Origin: Pontiella desulfatans
Lineage (GTDB): Bacteria; Verrucomicrobiota; Kiritimatiellia; Kiritimatiellales; Pontiellaceae
Direction: 5' to 3'
Assembly: GCF_900890425.1 (NCBI RefSeq)
Contig: NZ_CAAHFG010000001.1
Location: forward strand, 1,984,001 to 2,048,000
DNA: 64,000 nucleotides
The translations under genes were made by a program, and so were the position numbers. Below are positions 8,659 through 43,962 of the stretch, piece after piece. Within the stretch, counting starts at the first letter, position 1; the number at the start of each line of letters is the position of its first letter. Below the pieces are notes generated by a model that did no database searches, had not been told where the DNA came from, and worked only from the letters and a program-made list of their open reading frames with translations.

Positions 8659-8702
8659 CGATCACTTTCCCGAAACCACCCATGTAGCAGGCATCTAACG
8701 GA

Positions 8703-9061
8703 TAGATTGAACAGGACTTTCCCCTGAATTTAATGGGTCGCAATCGCAACCGTCTTGGGGGTAGCCCCAAACGGCTTCCACAAAGTGAATCGGTTCTGAA
8801 TGTGCCAACGGCACAAGACAATTTAGCCTTGGGCAACGCCCAAGGAAACCGTAGGAAAGAAACACATTTGCCCTGTAGGGGCAACACAAGCGCCCTGAGG
8901 AGAATTTGTGTTGCCCCTACAGGGCAAAATAAAAAAAAGACCCCCAGAACCTTGGACTGCGTCCAAGGCTAAATTGTGTTGTGCCGTTGGCACATTTGCC
9001 TCTCCAAAGCAAAGGGGCAACAGGCAGTTGAAAAACTGGGGGAATGTCCTGGTAGATTGAA
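8703..9061. mobile_element. MITE-like nested palindromic element with 9-bp flanking repeat
   Basis: The 438-bp gap 8659-9096 has no convincing gene and is filled by this structure. A direct repeat TAGATTGAA occurs at 8703-8711 and 9053-9061. Just inside lie inverted ends CAGGACTTTCCCC (8712-8724) and GGGGAATGTCCTG (9039-9051), 12 of 13 paired. Further in, a 32-bp arm at 8801-8832 pairs with 8963-8994 (31 of 32), and a 23-bp arm at 8867-8889 pairs perfectly with 8906-8928. Several smaller hairpins sit within the arms. The layout (target duplication, terminal inverted repeats, no transposase) fits a non-autonomous element; the short open frames across it are by-products. Confidence 0.7.
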
Positions 9062-9096
9062 TTGACGACTCCCCTTGCTAGTGACACGTTACTCGT

Positions 9097-9597
9097 ATGA
9101 ACTCCTTCATTCTATTCATAGCGTCCTCACTGTTCATTAGCAGCTTGGCTTCAATAGTCTTCTTTTTCCGTTCAAAGCGCGCCATTCAAGGAAGCTGGCA
9201 CCGTCATTTAACCTACCCACTACCATTGAAGATGTTTGCCTTTTTTGGATCTTCGCTTTTTCTAGCCGCACTGTTATTCATTTTTCGAAACACCAGCTTC
9301 ATCGAAGCCATGCAGTGTACAGGTTATATCCTTCCTTTTTTCATTCTGGTTCTTTGCGGAACGATTGAAACCCTGTTCTTCGAAATACAATATGACGACA
9401 AGAAAATAGTTCAACGCTCTCCGTGGACGGGTGAGAAGGAGATCCCTCTAGATGACCTATGGGAGATGCAACACCACAAATTTTTAGATCACCTTATGCT
9501 CCGTTCAACCAATGGAACCACGATTCGCATAGCAAAGCATTTGAATGGTTCCGAAGAATTGACTGAGCTAGCAAAAATTGTCATTCAATCACTCTGA
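9097..9597 (+). CDS. Hypothetical low-GC membrane protein
   Basis: This 166-residue protein has three hydrophobic segments (about 1-24, 45-66 and 75-95) and then a soluble tail with the pattern FEIQYDDKKIVQRSPW and a second strand-rich part, resembling a small PH-like fold as found in other membrane anchors. It is clearly more AT-rich than its neighbours, which suggests transfer. It lies directly after the MITE-like element. No obvious ribosome site is seen before the ATG. Function unknown. Confidence 0.6.
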   Translation: MNSFILFIASSLFISSLASIVFFFRSKRAIQGSWHRHLTYPLPLKMFAFFGSSLFLAALLFIFRNTSFIEAMQCTGYILPFFILVLCGTIETLFFEIQYDDKKIVQRSPWTGEKEIPLDDLWEMQHHKFLDHLMLRSTNGTTIRIAKHLNGSEELTELAKIVIQSL

Positions 9598-9721
9598 GCA
9601 TATTTCCAATAATAGCCCATCTAGATGTTCCCCTTAGGCCAACCAGCTCGCTTCGAGTGCATTTAACGTGACGTTCACATGGTTTCACGTGTATTATGTG
9701 TAACCTTTAAAGGAGCGGGCT

Positions 9722-10465
9722 ATGTGCGAGACATGCGGATGCGGAACGGCGAACGAACACCATCATCACGAACATGGGGATGGACACCACTATCACCACG
9801 ACCATGAACACAGACACACCAAGACGGTGACGTTGGAGCAAAAGGTGCTGGCGCAGAACGATGCACTGGCCGACCAAAACCGTTCGTGGCTGGCCGAACG
9901 CGGCGTGGTGGCCATCAACCTGATTTCCGCACCCGGCTCCGGAAAAACCTTCCTGCTCGAAAAGACGCTCGAAGCGCTCGACGGAACGATCAAATGCGCC
10001 GTCATCACCGGCGACCAGCAGACCGACCGCGATGCCCAGCGCCTTCAAGGCAAGGGGGCCAAGATCCACCAGATCGAAACCATCAGCTCCTGCCATCTCG
10101 ACGCCCACCAGGTCTCGCATGCAATGGAAGCGGTGGTGGATGAAGGCACCCGGTTGCTGTTCATCGAAAACGTCGGCAACATGGTTTGCCCCACCGCGTT
10201 CGATCTCGGCGAAAGCTTTAAGGTCGCCCTGCTCTCGACCCCCGAGGGCGAGGACAAGCCGATCAAATATCCCGTCCTCTTTGCCACCGCCAAGGCCATC
10301 GTGCTCACCAAGATGGATCTCGCCGACGCGCTGGACTGGGATCTCGCCGCCTGCCGCAAATATATCCAGCACGTCCAGCCCGGCGCCAATGTCATCGAAC
10401 TCAGCGCCAAATCCGGAAACGGCATGGAAGCGTGGCTAAATTACCTCCAACGTCTAGTCCAATAG
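9722..10465 (+). CDS. hypB: Hydrogenase/urease nickel incorporation GTPase HypB
   Basis: This 247-residue SIMIBI GTPase delivers nickel during [NiFe]-hydrogenase maturation. The N-terminus carries the CETCGCG high-affinity nickel site followed by a long His-rich stretch (residues 13-32), a metal store found in many HypB proteins. The P-loop is SAPGSGKTF, and downstream metal-site and nucleotide segments (TGDQQTD, LTKMDLAD) are present. AAAGGAGC precedes the ATG. It ends 12 bp inside the convergent pseudouridine synthase. HypF is encoded 19 kb away; no hydrogenase structural gene or other hyp gene is in the window. Confidence 0.93.
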   Translation: MCETCGCGTANEHHHHEHGDGHHYHHDHEHRHTKTVTLEQKVLAQNDALADQNRSWLAERGVVAINLISAPGSGKTFLLEKTLEALDGTIKCAVITGDQQTDRDAQRLQGKGAKIHQIETISSCHLDAHQVSHAMEAVVDEGTRLLFIENVGNMVCPTAFDLGESFKVALLSTPEGEDKPIKYPVLFATAKAIVLTKMDLADALDWDLAACRKYIQHVQPGANVIELSAKSGNGMEAWLNYLQRLVQ

Positions 10466-43419: not shown

Positions 43420-43962
43420 ATGAACCGCGAAGCTGACTATTGGCCGCATGCGCCCATGCATTCCCTGTCGGAACAGGGTGTCTACATGGTCACCGCAGGA
43501 ACCTATCAAAAGCAGCACTTCCTCAATGCACCCGACAAGCTGACCCTTTTTCGCGACCTGCTTTTCAGCTTTGCCGCGGAATTCGGCTGGCAGTTGCAGG
43601 CCTGGGCCATCATGGCCAACCACTATCATTTTGTGGCCGTCTCGCCCGCAAGCGCGGAATCGTTGCGGCGCTTCATCGGCAAACTGCATGAATATAACGC
43701 CAAAAAACTCAACCGGATCGATCAGGCCCCCGGACGTAAAGTCTGGCACAACTATTGGGATTCACACATCACCCACCAAACCTCCTACTATGCCCGCCTG
43801 CGCTATGTGCACCGCAACCCCGAGCACCACGGCATCATTGATCAGGCCGCCAACTATCGCTGGTGCTCGCAGGCCTGGCTCGAACACCACGCCGACCGCG
43901 CATTCGTCAATACCCTCGCCAAATTCAAAACCGACCGCATTTCCGTGCGCGATGATTTTTGA
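43420..43962 (+). CDS. REP-associated tyrosine transposase-like (RAYT) Y1 protein
   Basis: This 180-residue HUH endonuclease-like protein has the metal-binding HxH in NHYHFVAVSP and the tyrosine region HQTSYYARLRYVHRNP; RAYTs use one tyrosine there to cut single-stranded palindromes. It opens EQGVYMVTAGTYQKQHFL, as in the TnpA-REP group. REP-like copies lie 55 bp before it and 1.3 kb after it. It lacks IS200 ends, as is typical for a domesticated single-copy RAYT. Confidence 0.88.
   Translation: MNREADYWPHAPMHSLSEQGVYMVTAGTYQKQHFLNAPDKLTLFRDLLFSFAAEFGWQLQAWAIMANHYHFVAVSPASAESLRRFIGKLHEYNAKKLNRIDQAPGRKVWHNYWDSHITHQTSYYARLRYVHRNPEHHGIIDQAANYRWCSQAWLEHHADRAFVNTLAKFKTDRISVRDDF

Follow-up and report, generated by a model that had tools for sequence, protein, structure and literature searches.

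A nested MITE-like element in Pontiella desulfatans with a core of inverted Acido-Lenti-1 units and a candidate HUH/Y1 transposase partner

The stretch of Pontiella desulfatans DNA analysed here (64 kb, referred to as the window) carries at positions 8703-9061 a foldback structure of about 350 bases with nested palindromes, as had been described previously from its letters. The genome to which it belongs (8.66 Mb in six contigs, approximately 95 % complete) is referred to as the own genome. The element was covered by mechanical ORFs alone, with no real gene inside, and a tRNA search of the window returned none. Its ends are formed by the 9-bp direct repeat TAGATTGAA, for which no third occurrence was found on either strand of the window, followed on the inside by inverted ends (CAGGACTTTCCCC at the left, with its reverse complement at the right). 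These terminal inverted repeats (TIRs) had been given as 13 bp; the inverted ends were confirmed, with 12 of the 13 positions pairing, and the right TIR is set off from the right direct repeat by one base (G).

Within these ends, positions 8799-8845 and 8950-8996 form a 47-nt arm pair that is 87 % paired, the outer 32 bases of which pair at 31 of 32 positions when read from the sequence, in agreement with the 32-bp arm of the preliminary description. The 23-nt arm nested inside it pairs at 100 %, and both of the small hairpins with an AAC loop were located in the left part of the core (Table 1). Folding of positions 8799-8997 as single-stranded DNA gave -75.1 kcal/mol, compared with -25.9 kcal/mol (sd 3.1) for 200 shuffles (z -16). 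The core was found to consist of two inverted copies of the Rfam family RF01687 (Acido-Lenti-1) enclosing two inverted half-units. Each Acido-Lenti-1 unit comprises the hairpins H2 and H1 plus a linker (CTAAATTGTGTT in the + unit of the window). The reuse of AAC loops, which had been taken as a sign of built-in design, is real as repetition and is explained by the inverted arrangement of these two-hairpin units; neither the Rfam motif nor the link to HUH transposases had been recognized. A model constructed from own-genome units only, without the loci of relatives (R1), matched this element alone in the window.

Table 1. Features of the nested element, with positions in the window
Feature	Position	Strand	Evidence
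Left copy of the 9-bp direct repeat (putative target duplication)	8703-8711		Sequence match
Left TIR of the outer shell	8712-8724	+	12/13 vs 9039-9051
Left outer arm, with its own inner hairpin (fold)	8712-8798		With H1, 93 % identical to C2:1318275-1318378
Full RF01687 unit, inverted (H1 8801-8815, linker, H2 8827-8845)	8801-8845	-	29.9 bits, E 5.5e-5 (short stretch), below gathering score; R1 69.7 bits (seed member)
TTAG 5' of H2 on the strand opposite Rfam's; proposed guide tetranucleotide (putative role)	8823-8826	+	TTAG in 31/31 own units, NNAG in 55/57 units of relatives
Half-unit (H1-type hairpin, then AACACAA)	8867-8889	+	23-nt perfect arm; same half-unit beside tnpA in L021
Half-unit, inverted copy	8906-8928	-	23-nt perfect arm
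Full RF01687 unit (H2 8950-8968, linker, H1 ~8980-8994)	8950-8994	+	37.2 bits, gathering score 37; R1 69.2 bits (seed member)
TTAG 5' of H2 in the second unit; proposed guide tetranucleotide (putative role)	8969-8972	-	Same foot survey
Right outer arm	8998-9052		No further own-genome copy at E ≤ 0.001
Right TIR of the outer shell	9039-9051	-	Ends one base before the direct repeat
Right copy of the 9-bp direct repeat	9053-9061		Sequence match

The own genome contains one full copy of the outer shell and one additional left arm. The latter, located on contig C2, matches the left arm and H1 of the window over 104 bp (93 % identity); its first base coincides with the start of the TIR, and it stops at H1, where it is fused to another element. 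When the window was scanned for 9-bp repeats abutting 13-bp TIRs, this site (12/13) and one site of 10/13 were found, whereas 30 Markov-simulated windows yielded three 10/13 sites and nothing higher, so that none of the 30 reached 11/13 or more together with a 9-bp repeat. Occurrences of the TIR pattern in the own genome (approximately 95 % complete), with up to one mismatch, were at background level (22 forward and 21 reverse matches, compared with 17 and 27 for the reversed pattern), and the suggested search for an autonomous IS with the same ends therefore gave nothing above that level. For the only other exact TIR (L091), a second end was not found in the stretch that was read, and there was no Rfam match at E ≤ 0.1. 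HUH transposition, as in IS200/IS605 elements, is not known to generate a target duplication. This, together with the single complete copy, the one-base offset of the right TIR and the background-level TIR counts, would fit an alternative in which the repeat and the TIRs arose by chance and the Acido-Lenti-1 core is the sole mobile part; given the exact start of the C2 copy and the outcome of the simulations, we regard this alternative as improbable. The MITE in the window is real as a shell. The earlier interpretation of a MITE-like element with target duplication thus holds for the outer layer, on account of the C2 arm and the simulations, but not for the core, which is a separate dispersed repeat. 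The outer layer resembles DDE-type MITEs in being short and gene-free, with TIRs and a target duplication, and differs from them in that the body consists of the units of another element and no autonomous partner was found in the own genome.

An empty site was sought among 40 relatives, two of which (L130 and L131, both of the same genus) possessed the neighbouring genes. The element was absent from both, but an empty site lacking the element alone was not found, as the whole 1.8-kb stretch 8659-10453 was missing. In both of these genomes the flanking CotH-like gene abuts or overlaps a pseudouridine-synthase gene, by our reading of the gene names. The absent stretch holds the element, an ORF of 166 aa and what we read as a hypB-like gene. 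Since the element and its surroundings are absent from L130 and L131, this is not a single-copy sequence conserved at the locus.

A total of 40 RF01687 matches were identified in the own genome, and a search with the element itself, as had been proposed, found about 20 other places, matched over the core and mostly at 70-80 % identity. Outside the densest cluster, on contig C4, all 12 pairs of neighbouring units were ordered - then + and were 127-150 nt apart. The units are thus inverted, many-copy, intergenic hairpin repeats, as is characteristic of REPINs, the gene context having been read at the window and at the C4 cluster. Covariation was analysed in 31 own-genome units, which were picked from the 39 that could be located out of 40. 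In this set, the 13 base pairs were kept in 97.3 % of cells, eight pairs varied on both sides, and there were 62 double-change cells compared with a shuffle mean of 20.

The same quartet of units also occurred in a second MITE family of the own genome, which has imperfect TIRs of 24 bp. Five copies of 240-251 bp hold the quartet of the window core; of these, L028 and L029 have clear 8-bp duplications and L033 and L040 have duplications of 7-9 bp, with none seen in L026. In addition, L145 carries the quartet plus a further insert, a single H1 hairpin (ATGTGCCAACGGCACAT) occupies the position of the quartet in L144 (83 bp), L147 (~53 bp) has neither, and the quartet was also found without a recognized shell. 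The existence of copies with the quartet, with a single H1 and with none indicates that the quartet is a module gained or lost within MITEs. An alternative is that the element is an ordinary DDE-type MITE and nothing more, the quartet being a MITE body copied by the transposase of the shell, with no present role for an HUH enzyme. Within the second family, shell-driven spread suffices, since the five quartet copies, although near-identical in their bodies, were inserted at separate sites and duplications accompany four of them. We nevertheless consider this alternative unlikely as a general account, because one quartet occurs in different shells and outside any, is missing from L144 and L147, and consists of units that accompany tnpA genes across phyla, as described below.

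The densest cluster of units (approximately C4:1090720-1092010) encloses a single gene for a Y1_Tnp protein of 150 aa (G000:C4:1091094-1091543). The layout comprises full units, a half-unit, this tnpA, an inverted half-unit, an inverted full unit and further units, and the core in the window corresponds to this layout with 16 nt replacing tnpA. An attC/integron or CRISPR-like array was considered for the cluster and dropped on reading the sequence, which has two-hairpin units around a Y1 gene. Among the 19 Y1 matches in the own genome, units were present at the C4 locus only, the 18 others having none in their 3-kb loci. The own genome contains one such tnpA and one divergent relative, and several genomes of relatives contain more than one. 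The divergent gene (L070, G000:C1:812688-816032) scored 154 bits with the A1 profile and is flanked by short GC-rich hairpins only, with no Acido-Lenti-1 unit. A weak Y1_Tnp match at 43510-43791 of the window (+ strand; 25.2 bits, cut-off 23), which is 34 kb away from the element, has no adjoining unit (L085).

The protein encoded at the C4 locus matched Y1_Tnp with 71.7 bits and the NCBIfam IS200 model with 53.8 bits, under the cut-off of 55. In an alignment of 27 relatives D54, H55, W95, Y115, H122 and H123 were invariant, and H57, Q96 and Q119 were nearly so, giving the motifs DHVH, WQ and Y---Q--HH in addition to a conserved FQEEYREFL region. The available text of PMC6006769 describes TnpA_Y1 subclass 1.2 by a length of about 148 aa, the motifs DH[IV]H, WQ and Y---Q--HH and a conserved C-terminal part, with the entry 'REP: no'. 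On length and motifs, the C4 protein fits this description and is a candidate member of the subclass. Class 3 TnpA_Y1 (Acidobacteria, CnGA foot) was rejected, its motif as given in the same text (NHVH, Y----Q; PMC6006769) being at variance with P0001. A search of PDB sequences with the C4 protein gave no match at E ≤ 0.001. The AlphaFold model of a homologue with 78 % identity (L099; pLDDT 86.5, pTM 0.79) aligned with ISDra2 TnpA over 108 residues (Z 16.0, rmsd 2.7) and with the REP-bound TnpA_REP structure 4er8 at Z 9.9, and the C4 protein family is accordingly predicted, on modelling, to have the HUH/Y1 fold of IS200/IS605 TnpA.

A contig scan yielded 30 loci encoding related proteins, from Kiritimatiellales, Verrucomicrobia, Planctomycetes, Acidobacteria, Lentisphaerae, Fibrobacteres, Bacteroidetes and others. 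The Rfam model at its gathering score matched 10 of these tnpA loci, and R1 matched 22 at E ≤ 0.01. Most of the R1 matches (56 of 62) lay within 500 nt of tnpA, although this zone made up 19 % of the flanking sequence that was searched. At all 22 loci the nearest unit was no more than 82 nt from tnpA; in L123 a unit overlaps the decayed gene. The units were mostly on the - strand upstream and on the + strand downstream. All eight loci missed by R1 (L116, L117, L118, L119, L121, L122, L124 and L125) were flanked by inverted repeats that scored above every one of 100 shuffles; overall, such flanks were found at 22 of 33 loci. Every one of the 30 loci therefore has either units or inverted flanks, which departs from the statement that subclass 1.2 lacks REPs. 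In the available text of PMC6006769 that statement is a descriptive remark and not a defining motif.

RF01687 matches were found in 29 of the 30 genomes with these loci (24 over the cut-off), the exception being the genome of L124, and in none of 14 control genomes. Across the phylum (194 genomes), with tnpA scored as present where the best match exceeded 130 bits and three genomes at 60-74 bits left out, the distribution (both/tnpA only/RF01687 only/neither) was 32/5/11/146 (P 4.3e-22, uncorrected for kinship); with these three counted it was 32/8/11/143 (P 6e-20, likewise uncorrected for kinship). Thus 11 of 43 genomes with RF01687 had no strong tnpA match and five of 37 with tnpA had no RF01687. 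A unit was located within 600 nt at 14 or more of the 38 tnpA places checked in the phylum, among the best unit matches listed. The association was weaker in 296 Bacteroidota genomes (43/93/18/142, P 2.2e-5, without correction for kinship), where 11 of 25 hand-picked tnpA places had a listed unit no more than 700 nt away. The flanks of three tnpA relatives from Bacteroidota (L124, L125 and L153) have the same two-hairpin style, are partly tandem and are poorly caught by RF01687.

Read on the complement of Rfam's strand, H2 is immediately preceded, at its 5' side, by TTAG in all 31 own-genome units. At the same foot, 55 of 57 full-length units from relatives had NNAG (NTAG in 35, GTAG in seven). 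On Rfam's strand A.C mismatches outnumbered G.U pairs by 11:1 in the own genome and by 16:3 in relatives. The NNAG foot and the excess of A.C over G.U favour the opposite strand; the argument is suggestive and in part circular, as R1 contains these bases, some of the mismatches are at the loop-closing pair and the units share descent. In the available text of PMC8266576, known REPs carry GTAG at the hairpin foot, and in one system cleavage was lost when the third or the fourth base was altered. With their TTAG/NNAG foot, instead of GT[AG]G, the units appear to act in a REP-like manner and yet fall outside the canonical GTAG REPs.

An alternative is that Acido-Lenti-1 is a structured RNA, i.e. 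an sRNA gene or 3'-end element whose nearness to transposase genes is incidental or regulatory. Rfam lists RF01687 as an sRNA, and the available part of the 2010 paper has the entry 'RNA? y' in its table (PMC2864571). Hairpin covariation suits RNA and single-stranded DNA alike, and the units sit between genes. An RNA gene would not be expected in inverted copies on both sides of tnpA and in inverted pairs elsewhere, in at least 100 matches per genome (G052, G056 and G060), or with more A.C than G.U on its own strand, and we consider the RNA interpretation highly improbable. The presence of the hairpins around the gene for a single-stranded DNA transposase in many bacteria suggests that Acido-Lenti-1 is mobile DNA rather than an RNA gene. 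Acido-Lenti-1 is reportedly found near group II introns. The term 'group ii intron' is absent from the main text of PMC2864571.

The window element is therefore likely to be a nested non-autonomous mobile element, in which a quartet of Acido-Lenti-1 two-hairpin units of REP type, with an HUH/Y1 partner acting in trans, lies within a MITE-like shell. The core may be read as an inverted quartet in the manner of a REPIN, with two half-units between two full units, and the repeat would be the DNA with which a small HUH/Y1 transposase (TnpA_Y1, subclass 1.2) is partnered. As the sole such gene is embedded among units of this kind at C4, the core in the window was presumably served in trans. We propose that the units fold when the DNA is single-stranded (during replication, on the lagging strand) and that the transposase would bind the hairpins on the strand opposite the one annotated in Rfam. 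The NNAG at the 5' foot of H2 (TTAG here) could then serve as a guide, like GTAG in known REPs, and nicking and rejoining through the tyrosine of the enzyme would spread or rearrange the units. The shell, with its TIR CAGGACWTTCCCC and 9-bp duplication, would have been inserted by a putative DDE-type transposase.

Several known systems share part of this arrangement. REPs and REPINs with TnpA_REP (RAYT), or REPtrons, likewise consist of short intergenic hairpins in inverted pairs with a transposase gene among them, a foot tetranucleotide and an HUH/Y1 enzyme. Acido-Lenti-1 differs in having two hairpins per unit and an NNAG foot, and the enzyme has Y---Q--HH (subclass 1.2), whereas class 2 is listed with Y--NP in the available text of PMC6006769. 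IS200/IS605 elements are similar in having hairpins at their ends and a small HUH/Y1 TnpA, the fold being that of ISDra2/IS608 TnpA; here there are few transposase copies, many units and a symmetric inverted array, the NCBIfam IS200 score is just under the cut-off, and the own genome does not have the several near-identical transposase genes by which IS200/IS605 elements are recognized. TIRtrons/TIRYT (Di Nocera et al. 2013; PMC3733652) are tyrosine transposase genes with inverted-repeat flanks, some 'double palindromic' and some forming repeat families, Acidobacteria included; the available text of that paper, to which this comparison is confined, connects them with neither RF01687 nor subclass 1.2. 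Relative to the published RNA family, the window units match the RF01687 model, one of them at the gathering score, and are read here as DNA units of the opposite strand that occur in inverted pairs and around tnpA. A literature search covering listings and text passages of the accessible papers found no link between RF01687 and a transposase. In its behaviour, Acido-Lenti-1 is a REP-type DNA unit of two hairpins that is linked to HUH transposases of subclass 1.2, with REPtrons and TIRtrons as related prior art.

These results provide an Rfam family of unknown function with a concrete partner and with a mechanism open to testing, and a transposase subclass reported as REP-less with REP-like partners. 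In Tannerella forsythia, copies of Acido-Lenti-1 downstream of KLIKK protease genes have been interpreted as possible regulators (available text of PMC13298647); these and other RF01687 'sRNA' annotations may represent mobile DNA. From the nesting of the MITEs it appears that a single small element is subject to two kinds of transposition.

A more specific possibility, which we consider rather doubtful, is that the HUH enzyme of subclass 1.2 cuts and joins DNA at H1 and in this way exchanges modules between unrelated MITEs, the single-stranded DNA transposase assembling composites that DDE transposases then spread. This is based on the single H1 in place of the quartet in L144 and on the C2 arm, which ends exactly at H1 and is there joined to a different shell. 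If correct, the Rfam 'sRNA' family would be the toolkit of one single-stranded DNA transposase in several phyla. L144 may reflect loss of the quartet or its gain by the sister copies, and slippage between near-identical H1 copies would equally yield L144. A similar short insert (CGCGAAGCGAGGCTTGAGGAACGAAAGCAA...) was present inside the Acido-Lenti-1 quartet in L145 (~245-300) and in L031, perhaps representing a further family of small repeats for which these elements are a target.
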